Shown piece by piece: positions 1,736-24,197 of a stretch of DNA of 26,029 nucleotides. Source of the DNA: Candidatus Poribacteria bacterium (lineage in GTDB: Bacteria > Abyssobacteria > SURF-5); assembly GCA_016215705.1 (NCBI GenBank), contig JACRIR010000139.1, positions 1 through 26,029 of the forward strand, read 5' to 3'. The translations under genes were made by a program, and so were the position numbers. How positions within the stretch are numbered: position 1 is the first letter of the stretch; each line of letters starts with the position of its first letter. Below the pieces are notes generated by a model. That model made no database searches. It saw only the letters and a program-made list of their open reading frames with translations, and had not been told where the DNA came from.

Positions 1736-1754
1736 CAGCCATGTTGTAAATTAT

Positions 1755-1778
1755 AGGGGCACGGCGCGCCGTGCCCCT
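1755..1778. repeat. 24-bp perfect palindrome (GGCGCGCC-centred)
   Basis: A perfect self-complementary 24-mer whose arm begins AGGGGCACGGC, centred on GGCGCGCC. It lies 19 bases after the DUF35 stop, so in RNA it could act as a strong hairpin and perhaps a terminator, although only a weak T-rich tract follows. Related copies are at 3445-3468 (degenerate) and 7412-7434 (inside a coding gene). Confidence 0.85.
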
Positions 1779-1820
1779 GCTTCTTTCGCATCATTAGGAG
1801 AACTTTCTGCAAATACTGCG

Positions 1821-1861
1821 TTTATTCGGGGACACGATGCGGCATCGTGTCCCCGAATAAA
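1821..1861. repeat. 41-bp perfect palindrome, dispersed family
   Basis: Two 19-base arms (TTTATTCGGGGACACGATG and its reverse complement) flank the triplet CGG at 1840-1842. It sits between two plus-strand genes. The same palindrome with a CCG centre is at 18238-18278, and a copy with 13-base arms is at 24169-24197. It resembles REP-type elements. No REP-associated transposase gene is present in the window. Confidence 0.95.
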
Positions 1862-1950
1862 CGCTGCCCTCGGCGCTGGAATCGATTTCTCCGCCAAGTA
1901 TCACGCGTCTGTTCATGCTCATCCCGTTTCTTCCTAGACAACCATACCTC

Positions 1951-3429: not shown

Positions 3430-3444
3430 GACGTTGTGTATAGC

Positions 3445-3468
3445 AGGGACGCGGTGCGCCGTGCCCCT
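3445..3468. repeat. Degenerate copy of the GGCGCGCC-centred palindrome
   Basis: The right half (GCGCCGTGCCCCT) matches the copies at 1755 and 7412. The left half has several mismatches, so it is a decaying copy. It overlaps the 3' end of the frameshifted cysteine-rich gene by two bases. Confidence 0.6.
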
Positions 3469-3833: not shown

Positions 3834-4202
3834 TTAACCGTAGATGAACATCGATAAACACATCGCACCATAGCCGCAGATATCTTCTCGTTCAGAATTA
3901 ACTATCATTATAGCAGATTATTGGGACTAGCTGGCTTCTCCTATACCTTCATACTACTCTTTATCAAAATCACGAATTCTTGTCGATTCTCACAGCACAT
4001 TTTATGAAACTCACGCGGGCACACTGAATTGAGCCCCTACAGGCATATACCAGAAATTTCTGTAGGGGCGCGATTCATCGCGCCCGATGCGGCGACTTGG
4101 TTGCGGCTATGCTGCGCCATACTCTCGGTGGCAAATCATTTGTGTTCTCGCTTTACAGTTCAGTGGCAGGCATCGAAAGTTAATATATCTTCGCTGCCAT
4201 TT
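3834..4202. other. Intergenic stretch, no gene seen
   Basis: AT-richer than its surroundings. Open frames here are short and lack ribosome sites. It holds a fragment resembling a repeat seen again near 15450 (ccg(t/c)agatgaac-type, 3838-3856) and the inverted-repeat element at 4033-4085. Confidence 0.5.
4033..4085. repeat. TAGGGGCG-family inverted-repeat element
   Basis: GCCCCTACAG (4033-4042) pairs with CTGTAGGGGC (4060-4069). Overlapping its right arm is a second hairpin, GGGCGCGAT-TC-ATCGCGCCC (4066-4085). Relatives are at 6057-6085 and 19687-19797. Confidence 0.75.
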
Positions 4203-4232
4203 TGGACAAGAGCAAAAAGAGACTGGTATAAT
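4203..4232 (+). promoter_or_regulatory. Extended -10 promoter for the acyl-CoA dehydrogenase
   Basis: TGGACA (4203-4208), an 18-base spacer, and TGG-TATAAT (4224-4232), an extended -10 with a perfect hexamer. Transcription would begin near 4239, giving a leader of about 22 bases that includes the GAGGAGG ribosome site. Confidence 0.65.
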
Positions 4233-4260
4233 GTGCGCAACCCAAATGAGGAGGTTTCTT

Positions 4261-5958
4261 ATGATTCTGCTAAACCCCAAGAAGCACACACGTGAATACC
4301 TTGACGCCAAATCCCGGGAAATAATGCTGAAGACAATCGAGTTCTTCGAGAAGAAGGGCAAGAATAAAATCAAGGAAGACGACCACAAGAAGGTCTGGTA
4401 CGCCGATTTCCTTGAATTCCAGAAGAAGGAGAAGGTTTTCGCGACGCTCCTTACCCCTGCAAAGTACGGTGATAAGGACTGCCGCTGGGACACGTGGCGG
4501 ATATGCGAGTTTAACGAGATTCTCGGCTTCTACGGATTGGCCTATTGGTACACGTGGCAGGTCTCGATTCTCGGTCTAGGCCCAATCTGGATGAGCCCGA
4601 ACGAGGAGCAGAAACTGAAGGCGGCGCATCTGCTCCGGAAGGGCGCAATATTCGCCTTTGGCCTGTCCGAAAAGGAGCACGGCGCAGACGTCTATTCGAC
4701 CGAGATGACGCTCACGCCTCAGCCCGACGGCACTTACAAGGCCAATGGCGAAAAGTATTACATCGGCAACGGGAATGAGGCCGAAATGGTCTCGACTTTC
4801 GGCAAGGTTGCCGGCACAAAGGACTACGTCTTTTTTGCGGCCGATTCCAAGCACTCCCACTACGAGCTCAAGAAGAATGTCTGCGATTCGCAGAGCTACG
4901 TCTCCAATTACGCGTTGCATGACTACCCCATAACTGAAGCGGATATCCTCGAAAGAGGCCAGGGCGCGTGGGACGCCGCGCTCAATACGGTCAACATCGG
5001 AAAGTACAACCTCGGCTGGGCGTCAATCGGCATCTGCACGCATGCGCTCTACGAAGCGATCAATCACGCCTCACACCGCAAACTCTACAACATGTATGTG
5101 ACGGACTTCCCACACGTGAAGCAGATGTTCACCGACGCCTACACGCGCCTGGTGGCGATGAAACTGTTCGCACTCCGAGCGGCGGATTACATGCGAGTCG
5201 CCTCGCCGGAGGACAGGCGTTACCTGCTGTACAACCCAGTCGTAAAAATGAAGGTGACGACGCAAGGCGAAGAAGTGATCATTCTGCTGTGGGACGTCAT
5301 CGCGGCAAGGGGTTTTGAGAAAGACATGTATTTCGAGATGGCAGCGCGCGACATTCACGCCCTGCCGAGACTCGAGGGCACCGTTCACGTCAACATCGCC
5401 CTCATCGTGAAATTCATGGCCAACTACTTCTTCAATCCGGCCGAGTTCCCCGAAGTCGGCAAACAGATCGAACCGCGCAATGACGACTTTTTGTTCGAGC
5501 AAGGCCCCACCCGTGGACTGGGCAAAATCCGGTTCCACGATTACAGTGCAGCGTACAACAGCTACGATCTGCCCAACGTAAACGTGTTCAAGGAACAGAT
5601 AGAAGTCTTCAAAGAGTTTCTGGCCGCGGCAACGCCGGACGACGAGCAAAAGAAAGACATCGATTTCCTGATGGGTCTCGGAGAGATATTCACGCTGGTG
5701 GTCTACGGGCAACTCATTCTCGAAAACGCGAAAACATACAACATCGAGAACGACCTCGTCGACCAGATATTCGACTTCATGGTCAGAGATTTCTCAAAAT
5801 TCGCGCTGCAACTGTATGGAAAACAGAGCAGCACTCCTCAGCAAATGGAATACTTCATGAAGATGATACGGAAACCGGTCGTTGATAAGGCGCGATATCA
5901 GCGGGTGTGGAAGGATCATGTCTACGCATTGAAGGATGTCTATGCGATGAACGAGTAG
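4261..5958 (+). CDS. Acyl-CoA dehydrogenase family protein
   Basis: A 565-residue FAD-dependent acyl-CoA dehydrogenase, longer than the usual 380-400. The central FAD/substrate region is visible as FGLSEKEHGADV, the counterpart of the classical TEPxxGSD motif, followed by KYYIGNGNEAEMV. The C-terminal helical domain carries RLEGTVHVN. Its Glu372 is at the place of the catalytic base in the YEGT motif of the medium-chain enzyme. The extra C-terminal ~150 residues resemble long bacterial FadE-like members. It should oxidise an acyl-CoA to the 2,3-enoyl-CoA. The start at 4261 follows GAGGAGG at 7 bases; the longer frame from 4087 runs through the promoter and is rejected. No electron-transfer flavoprotein gene is adjacent. 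It may serve the same pathway as the upstream thiolase, but it has its own promoter. Confidence 0.88.
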   Translation: MILLNPKKHTREYLDAKSREIMLKTIEFFEKKGKNKIKEDDHKKVWYADFLEFQKKEKVFATLLTPAKYGDKDCRWDTWRICEFNEILGFYGLAYWYTWQVSILGLGPIWMSPNEEQKLKAAHLLRKGAIFAFGLSEKEHGADVYSTEMTLTPQPDGTYKANGEKYYIGNGNEAEMVSTFGKVAGTKDYVFFAADSKHSHYELKKNVCDSQSYVSNYALHDYPITEADILERGQGAWDAALNTVNIGKYNLGWASIGICTHALYEAINHASHRKLYNMYVTDFPHVKQMFTDAYTRLVAMKLFALRAADYMRVASPEDRRYLLYNPVVKMKVTTQGEEVIILLWDVIAARGFEKDMYFEMAARDIHALPRLEGTVHVNIALIVKFMANYFFNPAEFPEVGKQIEPRNDDFLFEQGPTRGLGKIRFHDYSAAYNSYDLPNVNVFKEQIEVFKEFLAAATPDDEQKKDIDFLMGLGEIFTLVVYGQLILENAKTYNIENDLVDQIFDFMVRDFSKFALQLYGKQSSTPQQMEYFMKMIRKPVVDKARYQRVWKDHVYALKDVYAMNE

Positions 5959-6206: not shown

Positions 6207-8045
6207 TCAGTTTCTCAGCAGCATTATGTTCGGCCCTACGCGCGCGGCCTCACGGTAGTTCTCCATAATCCATTCGTAGATGAGTGGCGTCTTTTCTTCG
6301 GGCTTATGAACTTCGCCTTCGCGCATGAGCACGAGGGCAGGGGGTGAATCCTCAAGTTTCCTCAGCGCCTCGGCCTGCATCGAAGCGGGAGCCGCATACG
6401 CGATCTGGCAATAGGGCGTAGGATTCGTGCGGTCTGCAAGAAAATAGTAAGCGCCTTGATTCGAGAAGTCGAAGATCGGTTCATCCGGTTTCGCATGGCT
6501 GGTTATGAAGGCGACAACTTTCTCGACTTCTTGAGCCTGCTCCGATGGAACATGCACCCCGCCGGCCCGCTCAATGTTCAAAGATGAATAACCAACGAGG
6601 CCGCTTTCCTTCCATTCCCGCAGCCTGAATCTCCGGGTCACGATGCCACCGTTCCGGCAAGTCGCATAATAGTAGAGCACAAGCCCGAGAACAACGAAGC
6701 CGAAAGCAAGATAACTGAAACACAGACTCTGGAATCGGAGGAGCAACGGGGGCGTTTCATCGGGTCCGCCGCGCTGCCGCTTTATCGCCTTGCGGAAAAG
6801 CACGACCCTCTCGAGGAAACAGATGTTCAGAATCCAGAAAGGCCCGAGGGCATACATAATGTGGCCCTCATCCGCCCGGCCGGCTGCGGACCGATAGAAA
6901 ATGATTCCTGCCAGCGTGCAGAGGAGGAGCGCGGTGTCGTCGTCATTCAGTTTTCTTGCGATCAGTTCTGGCAACAACGCCAAAACGGCGCATGCATAGA
7001 CGAACATCGGATAGTACCACTTGATGATTACATAGATCACGCGGTTGCGGGCAGTGGAGTTCTCGAACGGACCCTTGAGACTGCTGAGCGGCGGCAGCGG
7101 AATTCCCCATGTCTCTTTTTGAAATCTCAATTGAAGATAGCAGTTGAGAATGAAATCATCGAGGATACCACGCCAAATAAGATAGGCGAGAAACGGCAAA
7201 GCACCCACCAAAGCGCCGAGGCAATATGAGACCATTTCGTCACGCAGAAACCGTCTTCCGCAGGCATTGTCGCCAACCGCAGAAAGGAGTATGAATGCCA
7301 CTCCGATAGCGCAGGCATATACACCGGTGTCGAGGCTGTAGAAAACCATCGCCGCCGCAAGCACTCCTGCGAAGAAGATGGAGGCATTGAAACTCTTCAA
7401 CATCTGGTGTGAGGGCACGGCGCGCCGTGCCCCTAGTGGCAACACTGCATCGAAATAGGATTTGCCGGATGGACTCGCCGTGGTTGCTCTTCGGCCCGCA
7501 ACCAACAGCGTCATGCTCAGAAAAGGCAGAAGATGTCTTTCGTTTATCATCACGTCTGCAAAAACCAACAGCACGAAGGTGGGAATTATCCAAAGCTTGT
7601 TTCGGAACAGAGAATAGAGGAGAAGATAAACGACTATCCAGACAACGGGAACAAGATATCCGCTGACATCTCCATTTGAAAGCCGGCGGTTAGCCGCGAC
7701 TGACACGCCGAAGAGCGAAAAGGCGAGCCTGGTGCGCAGGAGGTTGACGCCCCAGCCGTGCTGCAAGTATATGTCGCGGAACGGGAGTTTGTCGCGAAGC
7801 GTCTCGGCGGCCGGCGCGAGCGCTTCTCCCTCATGAAAGAGGTCGAGTGCGCCGTCAATGTTTGAGTCGTAGAAAGCAGCGTATATGATGAGGGGGATCA
7901 AAACAAAGAAGAACAAGCGCAGAAGTCCGCGATGCGCAGTTCCCGCACTTATCGGGGACTCTCCCCCACGGTCCCCTAAAGGCCCACGTCCGGACCCATC
8001 TGAGCTTTCAGTCACCGCTCCCTTGTCATTCACGCGTCCTTCCAT
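6207..8045 (-). CDS. Polytopic membrane protein, GT-C glycosyltransferase-like
   Basis: A 612-residue inner-membrane protein with about ten hydrophobic segments; the first is near residues 43-60. The first extracytoplasmic loop (DGALDLFHEGEALAPAAETL followed by PFRDIYLQHGWG) matches the layout of GT39/PMT-like enzymes that move sugars from polyprenyl carriers. In those enzymes an acidic loop precedes a P-[YF]-RDxxxxxG segment. RSAAGRADEGH later resembles another conserved loop. The last ~130 residues are a soluble periplasmic tail (FDFSNQGAYYFLADRTNPTPY). It starts 144 bases after the UxaA-type gene and may share its transcript, although the function looks unrelated. A palindromic repeat at 7412-7434 lies inside it, in frame. 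The start at 8045 has only GGAAAT as ribosome site. Family placement is moderate; donor and acceptor are unknown. Confidence 0.75.
   Translation of the reverse strand: MEGRVNDKGAVTESSDGSGRGPLGDRGGESPISAGTAHRGLLRLFFFVLIPLIIYAAFYDSNIDGALDLFHEGEALAPAAETLRDKLPFRDIYLQHGWGVNLLRTRLAFSLFGVSVAANRRLSNGDVSGYLVPVVWIVVYLLLYSLFRNKLWIIPTFVLLVFADVMINERHLLPFLSMTLLVAGRRATTASPSGKSYFDAVLPLGARRAVPSHQMLKSFNASIFFAGVLAAAMVFYSLDTGVYACAIGVAFILLSAVGDNACGRRFLRDEMVSYCLGALVGALPFLAYLIWRGILDDFILNCYLQLRFQKETWGIPLPPLSSLKGPFENSTARNRVIYVIIKWYYPMFVYACAVLALLPELIARKLNDDDTALLLCTLAGIIFYRSAAGRADEGHIMYALGPFWILNICFLERVVLFRKAIKRQRGGPDETPPLLLRFQSLCFSYLAFGFVVLGLVLYYYATCRNGGIVTRRFRLREWKESGLVGYSSLNIERAGGVHVPSEQAQEVEKVVAFITSHAKPDEPIFDFSNQGAYYFLADRTNPTPYCQIAYAAPASMQAEALRKLEDSPPALVLMREGEVHKPEEKTPLIYEWIMENYREAARVGPNIMLLRN
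7412..7434. repeat. GGCGCGCC-centred palindrome inside a coding gene
   Basis: Same sequence as 1755-1778 apart from one missing base at the left end. It encodes about residues 204-212 of the membrane protein on the minus strand (LGARRAVPS) and keeps the frame open. Confidence 0.85.
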
Positions 8046-17642: not shown

Positions 17643-18032
17643 TTAGGGTTCAGGGTTGAACGCGACCATTTCGACTTCTATGCCGACTTCCTTCGGCAGG
17701 CGAGCAACCTGGACGGTGCTGCGCGCCGGAGGTTCGGATGGGAAGAACCTGGAATAGACGCCGTTTATCTTCGGAAAATCGTCCATGTTCGCGATGAAGA
17801 GAGACACTTTGACCACGTGGCGGAGTGTTGCTCCTGCGGCCTCGAGCACTCGCTTCGAATTCGTGAGAACCAATTCAGTTTGCTCTTCGATCGTTCCGAG
17901 GACCAGTTGATTTGTCGCCGGATCAATGGGTATTTGGCCAGAGAGGTATATCCAGCCTCCCGCTTTGATTGCTTGCGAGTACGGCCCCACTGGCTTCGGG
18001 GCTTTTTCGGTAAGAACAATCTGTTTGTTCAT
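17643..18032 (-). CDS. ridA: RidA-family enamine/imine deaminase
   Basis: A 129-residue member of the YjgF/YER057c/UK114 family, a cytosolic trimer that hydrolyses reactive enamines and imines made by PLP enzymes. The family signatures are clear: KPVGPYSQAI (14-22), YLSGQIPIDP, VVKVSLFIANMDDF, and PARSTVQVARLP with the catalytic Arg104, ending EVEMVAF with Glu121. The length is typical. AGAGGAA precedes the ATG at 18032. The next gene on the strand, the CocE-type hydrolase, begins 27 bases after its stop, so the two are probably cotranscribed. Its upstream region contains the 29-bp repeat array, so any transcript from aroA would carry the array in its spacer. Confidence 0.95.
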   Translation of the reverse strand: MNKQIVLTEKAPKPVGPYSQAIKAGGWIYLSGQIPIDPATNQLVLGTIEEQTELVLTNSKRVLEAAGATLRHVVKVSLFIANMDDFPKINGVYSRFFPSEPPARSTVQVARLPKEVGIEVEMVAFNPEP

Positions 18033-18091: not shown

Positions 18092-18278
18092 GCTTGTTGC
18101 GGGCCACGATGCCACATGATGTTTATTCGGGGACACGATGCCGCATCTCGTTTATTCGGGGACACGATGCGCCATCTCGTTTATTCGGGGACACGATGCC
18201 GCATCTCGTTTATTCGGGGACACGATGCGCCATCTCGTTTATTCGGGGACACGATGCCGCATCGTGTCCCCGAATAAA
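18092..18278. repeat. 29-bp tandem array of half-palindromes
   Basis: Four 29-bp units at 18121-18149, 18150-18178, 18179-18207 and 18208-18236. Each begins GTTTATTCGGGGACACGATG, then a triplet, then CATCTC. The triplet alternates CCG, CGC, CCG, CGC, so bases 18121-18178 are exactly repeated as 18179-18236. A fifth unit (18237 on) opens into the complete 41-bp palindrome at 18238-18278. A decayed unit in the same register (20 of 29 bases) is at 18092-18120. It is not a CRISPR: units abut with no spacers. Confidence 0.95.
18238..18278. repeat. 41-bp perfect palindrome closing the array
   Basis: Nineteen-base arms around CCG, the same arms as at 1821-1861. It starts 10 bases beyond the aroA stop codon on the minus strand, so in the aroA transcript it forms a 19-bp hairpin that could stabilise the 3' end or attenuate readthrough into ridA. 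Confidence 0.95.
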
Positions 18279-18288
18279 CATGGCTTCC

Positions 18289-19641
18289 CTAAGAGATTGC
18301 GACTTTCCGCAGCAGCTCAAAGAAATCGGGAAACGAGGTTGACACACATGCCGTGTCATTGATCGTCACCGGTCCGTTGGCGACAAGCGCAGAGATCGCC
18401 ATTGCCATGGCGGTACGATGGTCCCCGAAACTCTCGACGGTTCCTCCCTTGAGGCGCTGGGGTCCGGTGATTATCAATCCGTCGGGCCTTTCTTCGATGC
18501 GTGCTCCCAGGACCGCAAGGTTTTTCGCAAGCGCGCTCAGGCGGTCGGTCTCCTTGACCCGCAGTTCGCCGGCGCCCTCGATAACGGTCGTGCCCTCCGC
18601 CCGCAGCGCGAGCACGGCGATTATGGGAACCTCGTCGATAAGCCTCGGAATATCGCGCGCGCCGATATGCGCGGCCTTCAGCGTTTTCGCTCCCTGTATA
18701 AGCACGTCATTCGAAGGCTCATTCAAACCGTAGTCGGGAATATCCACGCCGGACATCGGCGTTCCCATTTGCTCGAGCACGTCCAGGAATCCTGACCGCG
18801 TCCGATTCAAACCTACGTCGCGCAGGAGCAACTCCGAGCCGGGAAGCAGCGCCGCCGCTGCCATAAAGAAAGCAGCGGATGAGATGTCGCCGGGGACAAT
18901 GATTTCTGCGCCGTGAAGCGGCACAGGCCCCGTCACTGCCACGGTCAATTCCTTCACGTCAAGCGTAGCGCCGAGACGATGGAGCATGCGTTCGGTGTGA
19001 TCCCTCGACTTATATGGCTCGCGCACAACCGTCTTTCCGTTGCAGTAGAGGCCTGCGAGCAAAATGGCTGACTTGACCTGCGCGCTTGCGATCGGTGAGT
19101 CGTAAACAATCGGCTTCAGAGAGGCTTGGCCTGACGAGACACCCTCCGGTGAAACACCGTTGATCTCAATCGGCGCGTATCTGTCCCCCTCTTGTCCCCG
19201 AAGTTGCGCTCCCATTTGTCTGAGCGGTTGGATAACCCGGCCCATCGGCCGCCTTCGGAGGTATTGATCTCCGGTGAGGCGAGACGGAAACTTCTGTGCC
19301 GCGAGCAGTCCCATCATCAGCCGCATGGTCGTGCCCGAGTTGCCGCAATCGATTGTCTCCGACGGCGGCTTCAGTCCGTGGAGACCAACCCCTTCAATCT
19401 CCAATTCACCCGGCCCTTTTTCTTCGATACCGACACCGAGGAGCCGCATCGCATTCAGCGTCGAGACGCAGTCTCCAGCGTCGAGGAAGTTCTTGACCTC
19501 CACGCGACCTTCAGCTATCGAACCGATAAGAACCGCTCTGTGTGAGATAGACTTGTCGGGCGGGACTTTCAGGTCGCCCTGAATGAAGCGAGCCGGATAG
19601 ACGGTCTCAGAGAAAAGGGGGTCATTTTCGGGGATTGACAA
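18289..19641 (-). CDS. aroA: 3-phosphoshikimate 1-carboxyvinyltransferase (EPSP synthase)
   Basis: A 450-residue shikimate-pathway enzyme joining shikimate-3-phosphate and PEP. Motifs in order: VPPDKSISHRAVL (K30), CGNSGTTMRLMMGLL, LRRRPMGRVIQPLRQMGA, SPIASAQVKSAILLAGL, KSRDHTERML, GLNRTRSGFLDVL, IPRLIDEVPIIAVLA, GELRVKETDRL and FGDHRTAMAMAI. SAQxK, RDHTE and NxTR together match the class II (CP4-like) group, known for low glyphosate sensitivity; that is family inference. No in-frame ATG precedes the conserved region. I favour TTG 19641 (GGAG upstream). TTG 19698 lies within a repeat and would add 19 odd residues. No other aro genes adjoin. Confidence 0.95.
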   Translation of the reverse strand: MSIPENDPLFSETVYPARFIQGDLKVPPDKSISHRAVLIGSIAEGRVEVKNFLDAGDCVSTLNAMRLLGVGIEEKGPGELEIEGVGLHGLKPPSETIDCGNSGTTMRLMMGLLAAQKFPSRLTGDQYLRRRPMGRVIQPLRQMGAQLRGQEGDRYAPIEINGVSPEGVSSGQASLKPIVYDSPIASAQVKSAILLAGLYCNGKTVVREPYKSRDHTERMLHRLGATLDVKELTVAVTGPVPLHGAEIIVPGDISSAAFFMAAAALLPGSELLLRDVGLNRTRSGFLDVLEQMGTPMSGVDIPDYGLNEPSNDVLIQGAKTLKAAHIGARDIPRLIDEVPIIAVLALRAEGTTVIEGAGELRVKETDRLSALAKNLAVLGARIEERPDGLIITGPQRLKGGTVESFGDHRTAMAMAISALVANGPVTINDTACVSTSFPDFFELLRKVAIS

Positions 19642-19686
19642 AGTCTCATTTTCTCCGGGTCTGGTCGCGTTTCTTGATTCATGCGT

Positions 19687-19797
19687 GTAGGGGCGCAATT
19701 CATTGCGCCCGTGTGATTAGTGTGCGTTAGGTTCGTGCACGTAATCACGACATGAATTCACAATTTCAAACGTGAGTAGTACAAGGTTCGCCCCTAC
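19687..19797. repeat. 111-bp element with GTAGGGGCG inverted ends
   Basis: GTAGGGGCG (19687-19695) and CGCCCCTAC (19789-19797) are exact inverted termini. Inside are a GGGCGCAAT-TC-ATTGCGCCC hairpin (19691-19710) and a GTGATTA...TAATCAC pair. No coding capacity. It fills most of the aroA upstream gap and looks like a small non-autonomous element related to 4033-4085 and 6057-6085. Confidence 0.65.
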
Positions 19798-24121: not shown

Positions 24122-24168
24122 GGAACGTCACCGAATCGATGCTATGTTATTCAGGAAACGTCATGCCG

Positions 24169-24197
24169 GGGACACGATGAGGCATCGTGTCCCCGAT
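24169..24197. repeat. Shortened copy of the GGGGACACGATG palindrome
   Basis: Arms CGGGGACACGATG and its complement (13 bases) around AGG (24182-24184). The outer TTTATT/AATAAA parts are missing. It is located between convergent genes. Confidence 0.9.

Follow-up and report, generated by a model that had tools for sequence, protein, structure and literature searches.

The genome that contains the aroA-ridA locus studied here harbours a family of REP-like palindromes, and at 23 loci within the 1.64 Mb surveyed in detail, extra copies of a single palindrome arm were found near a complete palindrome. These loci have a common architecture: extra arms of like orientation flank one side of a single complete palindrome, with a locus-specific spacer. 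With moderate confidence, we propose that such half arrays arose when one arm was copied with the hairpin as template (template switching), and then grew by ordinary tandem slippage. The arrays bear on the maintenance of perfect stems in REP-like palindromes and on how clusters of them form. With hundreds of copies and some twenty arrays, the genome offers a natural record in which arm copying, slippage and insertion can be separated. Half-arm arrays add a modest new variation to the known REP-type repeats and are a useful footprint of DNA hairpin growth in replication.

A dispersed palindrome family

The window, i.e. the whole stretch of 26,029 nucleotides that was analysed, belongs to a draft metagenome-assembled genome (G000) of 5.47 Mb in 270 contigs, estimated as 92% complete. 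Our detailed survey covered 30% of it (including about 32 kb of N), and since some contigs were chosen for holding arrays, array frequencies given below are not genome estimates. The 12-nt arm had 411 exact matches in G000, compared with 0 for the reversed control, and the core GGGGACACGATG-NNN-CATCGTGTCCCC formed 136 perfect 27-nt palindromes. This bears out an earlier note on the window, in which the palindrome was described as dispersed and REP-like. No perfect core palindrome was detected in 59 other genomes, two of the same family included, and a looser form, CGGGGACA-N13-TGTCCCCG, was present 251 times in G000 and 0 times in two sister genera. Each copy is a 43-nt hairpin whose arms consist of a conserved 12-nt core and 8 outer bases and enclose a 3-nt loop. 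Among the perfect copies in the surveyed 1.64 Mb, inner-stem subfamilies CGATG (57 copies), CCATG (25) and CCTTG (7) were distinguished. Only 37 of 139 palindrome copies were located inside called ORFs, as opposed to 87% of random 43-mers.

Other repeats were encountered as well. The second family of dispersed palindromes, AGGGGCACGGC...GCCGTGCCCCT, occupies window positions 1743-1778, 3433-3468 and 7399-7434; in the sampled part of G000 it was represented by 25 arm pairs and 0 half arrays. The statistical contrast obtained when the GGGGACA family was set against the others (Fisher p 0.002) was inflated, about 12 contigs having been chosen for holding arrays, and was abandoned. A third repeat family, TGTAGGGGCGCGATTCATCGCGCCCG (window 4061-4086 and 19686-19711), is often situated beside GGGGACA palindromes.

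The array in the aroA-ridA spacer

Direct reading of the sequence revealed four exact 29-bp units at 18121-18236, followed by a complete palindrome (Table 1). Each unit is made up of the left arm (20 nt), a triplet, CATC and TC. Identity with a period of 58 extends over 18121-18263. The array is no product of chance: allowing 3 mismatches at most, the 19-mer arm has 8 matches, where shuffled sequence would yield 0.01. The earlier note had reported the 29-bp tandem units, the alternation of CCG and CGC triplets with the resulting exact 58-bp duplication, the completion of the palindrome only at the array end (18237-18279) and a decayed unit preceding the array in register (18092-18120, two core mismatches), and all of these readings hold, coordinates included. 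Two details had to be amended: the palindrome, which is indeed present, is a perfect inverted repeat of 43 bp instead of 41 bp, and the unit recipe of arm, triplet and four bases was right in these parts and omitted two more bases, TC.

Table 1. Palindrome copies, array units and flanking genes in the window
Feature	Position	Strand	Remark
Solitary complete palindrome of GGGGACA family	1818..1864	.	perfect 47-bp inverted repeat
ridA (RidA-family protein), downstream gene	17643..18032	-	name from first reading; homologues adjoin aroA in both sister genera
Decayed half unit, in register	18092..18120	+	core CGGGCCACGATG, 2 mismatches
Half unit 1	18121..18149	+	loop triplet CCG
Half unit 2	18150..18178	+	loop triplet CGC
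Half unit 3	18179..18207	+	CCG; unit 1 copied exactly
Half unit 4	18208..18236	+	CGC; unit 2 copied exactly
Array-terminating complete palindrome	18237..18279	.	perfect 43-bp inverted repeat, 20-bp stem, 3-nt loop
aroA (EPSP synthase), upstream gene	18289..19698	-	name from first reading; homologues in two sister genera
Solitary palindrome, core only	24168..24194	.	outer flanks unmirrored

The array had been placed between aroA and ridA on their coding strand. Its position between the genes was correct; by way of a small correction, both genes are encoded on the minus strand, and along transcription the complete hairpin therefore comes first and the half units after it. The palindrome lies 9 bp after the aroA stop codon. 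As RNA, the complete hairpin (18237-18279) has a predicted fold of -33.5 kcal/mol. An intrinsic terminator was considered and dropped, since none was predicted at the hairpin and a T run after the stem is absent. A CRISPR array was likewise dropped, the 29-bp units being contiguous, with no unique spacers between them.

In both sister genera, aroA and ridA are also neighbours, separated by a spacer of about 190 bp (G002, L054) or 24 bp (G001). GGGGACA is absent from these syntenic spacers (G001, G002); most simply, the palindrome would have entered the aroA-ridA spacer after the genera split. The closest named relative by aroA was Ca. Abyssobacteria SURF_17, with 72% identity.

Half-arm arrays at other loci

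The earlier note had looked to a genome-wide search for the unit, and half-unit arrays were indeed found to recur elsewhere, with locus-specific units; a search with exact arms yielded 20 close same-orientation pairs in G000. The orientation of an extra arm agreed with that of the neighbouring arm in 26 of 26 cases, a frequency biased by the picking of about half of the array loci through the same-orientation exact-arm pattern; at loci picked without this pattern, like orientation was observed in 13 of 13 (binomial p 0.0002). The shortest common array unit (23-24 nt) corresponds to one arm plus the loop. The array spacers differ from locus to locus, examples being GAATTAAGGGTGCG, ATTTTTCTGGCGTTG and GTTTTTCCCGG, and their last bases are a loop triplet; 4-12 nt resembling a remnant of the lost arm were retained in the window and at L114, L124, L125, L165, L177 and L205.

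The outer arm was more decayed than the inner one at 11 loci and the reverse was observed at 0, for which reason the outer array end appears to be the oldest; detection thresholds may add to the difference in decay. Array polarity showed no clear link either to GC skew (15:8) or to the coding strand (14:9). In 20 of 23 cases the extra arms were of the same subfamily, which was at one point taken to support in-place duplication. This argument was dropped, as the search pattern demanded identical subfamily; among loci found otherwise, the subfamily was the same in about 6 cases, different in 3 and unclear in 1.

Mirroring of the outer arms

The eight flank bases next to the core were mirrored within the locus at 0.83-1.00 per position in 89 palindromes with a perfect core, while flanks paired across different loci matched at only 0.30-0.92 per position. 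There were 28 distinct mirrored 8-mers among 69. Independent mutation would leave the arms unmatched; therefore, to judge from these flanks, the family must be subject either to copying from arm to arm or to selection that favours perfect hairpins through repeated double changes. Homogenisation of hairpin arms via template switching has been documented (PMC8794818, PMC8604942).

The spacers of the arrays carry a similar signal. In the inner spacer (the 10 nt that directly follow the inner arm), 56 informative sites matched the mirror of the opposite arm, i.e. a reverse-complement copy of its flank such as template switching would leave, and 12 matched the outer native flank; counted by locus, the ratio was 18 to 2. 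The flanks of the extra arms thus mirror the opposite arm. This points to copying templated by the hairpin, which would in one step give a mirrored extra arm of like orientation that starts at a loop triplet. Contrary to this trend, the spacers of L125, L199 and part of L126 match the outer flank. At the aroA-ridA locus, the mirrored stretch comprises 8-10 flank bases and is no longer than in solitary palindromes; nor were mirrored stretches significantly longer in array palindromes as a group (Mann-Whitney p 0.11).

Transposases

The earlier note had suggested looking for a RAYT/IS200-type transposase elsewhere in the genome, and genes of the IS200-type tyrosine class were found, one pair of them with related GGGGACA repeats. 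G000 contains three Y1 (PF01797) transposase genes. The pair, on C28, comprises two near-identical genes resembling REP-associated tyrosine transposases, about 1.75 kb apart (L119:1-2440). Its second copy scored 56 bits against NF047646, under the curated cut-off of 80, and is flanked by inverted TTATTCCGGGGACATAATACC repeats; the GGGGACA termini of the C28 pair (GGGGACATAATACC) are related to the GGGGACACGATG arms, not identical with them. The C225 transposase (82 bits, cut-off 80) has a DnaA-like C-terminal domain, and its gene has GGGGTCAG ends. None of the three Y1 genes in this 92% complete genome was found to be bounded by an exact GGGGACACGATG arm. G001, a sister genome, encodes a transposase of its own between GGGGACAGAGACC repeats, with 21 dispersed arms, and two of its loci carry plain 67-bp tandem duplications of the terminal repeat. 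The transposase ends in G000 and G001 are similar to GGGGWSAS, the motif published for TIRYT elements.

A model for the origin of half arrays

According to the model that we favour, the new strand would fold back at a hairpin during replication, and one arm would be extended with the opposite arm, together with about 8-15 nt of the flank of that arm, as template. The strand would then return to its original template, at the tip of the hairpin or close to it, and copy the arm again, leaving a complete, perfectly mirrored palindrome and a like-oriented extra arm preceded by the loop triplet. Once two units were present, tandem slippage could enlarge the array; slippage, already put forward in the earlier note, accounts for the exact 58-bp duplication in the window. 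The extra half units would accordingly arise in place, and dispersal of the family would presumably depend on a transposase.

A serious rival is that the polymerase slipped at the hairpin and simply duplicated one arm in tandem, the arms being equalised later by family-wide correction. Mirroring could have been imposed after such a duplication, and because the duplication could precede it, mirroring does not date the copying step. The spacers of L125 and L199, which match the outer native flank, would be expected under slippage, as would the resemblance of the distal part of the L126 spacer to that flank; the plain duplications in G001 provide a precedent, and slippage is required anyway for multi-unit arrays. 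It sits less well with the 18 of 20 informative loci that match the opposite-arm mirror, and the unit boundaries coincide with the loop and with the limit of the mirrored stem more regularly than random slippage needs. We regard slippage followed by correction as rather unlikely. Alternatively, some arrays may be juxtaposed insertions, in which a new complete palindrome inserted next to or within an older copy, and the near arm of the latter was lost. L165 resembles a complete palindrome abutting a second, truncated one, and L199, L151 and L205 (L205:2537) combine arms of different subfamilies. Insertion into the loop, however, should give arms on both sides (++--), which was never clearly seen, and the identical units in long arrays (L123 and the window) would go unexplained; it seems improbable that half arrays originated by repeated insertion.

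It is similarly doubtful, in our view, that hairpin-primed replication during REP spread left half-hairpin arrays as its footprint, with a RAYT/TIRYT enzyme nicking single-stranded hairpin DNA and the free 3' end priming copying or joining arms. Tyrosine transposase genes are present, one pair with related termini, and it has been proposed that REPs spread by using the 3'-OH for replication (PMC8266576). Half arrays were almost absent from the other palindrome families examined, a contrast weakened by the choice of contigs. Against this, the C28 termini are related to the family arms but not identical with them, and the cut of known enzymes falls at CT beside the stem and not in the loop (PMC8266576), which does not support the nick at the stem envisaged in the earlier note. 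Repeats in a genome assembled from a metagenome may also be assembly artefacts, and the fragmentation of the draft into 270 contigs and the position of the L163 array at a contig end might raise suspicion. Nevertheless, arrays with different spacers lie within many contigs, and the copies differ in loop triplets and in decayed outer units, so that we consider an artefact very improbable.

Relation to known repeats

Terminal repeats of TIRYTs share the motif GGGGWSAS, and single, dimeric and grouped copies of them were reported (Di Nocera et al. 2013, PMC3733652); TIRYT/RAYT transposases constitute subclass 2.1 of PMC6006769. On sequence grounds, the repeat described here may be filed next to this terminal-repeat branch of REP-like elements. 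GGGGACAC, present in arms of all three inner-stem subfamilies, fits GGGGWSAS (PMC3733652), the copies are many, dispersed and mostly intergenic, and IS200-type tyrosine transposases are encoded in the same genome. What differs is the grouped form, which is here a half-hairpin array ending in a complete hairpin. High copy number, mostly intergenic location and locus-specific cluster flanks are also shared with Pseudomonas REPINs and their tandem clusters (PMC3116915) and with BIMEs of E. coli. In those clusters, however, the unit is a whole REP or REPIN, whereas here it consists of one arm and the loop, and the units lack the complete hairpins of BIME-2 or REPIN tandem clusters. The 5' GTAG/GGAG tag of GTAG REPs and REPINs is absent, and the outer bases are variable and A/T-rich (GAATAAAC, GATTTTCT and others).

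Template-switch (quasipalindrome) mutations (PMC8794818, PMC7202029, PMC8604942) resemble our case in that arms become perfectly complementary by copying of the opposite arm. They have been published as correction or creation of stems, unlike the REP-array context here. None of the papers in the collection searched tied template switching to REP elements, and searches for half-palindrome arrays and for GGGGACA with tyrosine transposase returned no match. Our findings suggest a part for template switching at hairpins in shaping REP families.

Finally, the palindrome was also encountered in a contig from a viral collection (L291, IMGVR_UViG_3300046652_000019), with a perfect core at 4652-4678 and, at 1816, one arm that matches exactly. 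Judged by eye, the ORFs of this contig resemble phage structural genes. When its stretch 4200-5400 was compared with G000, the palindrome was the sole match.
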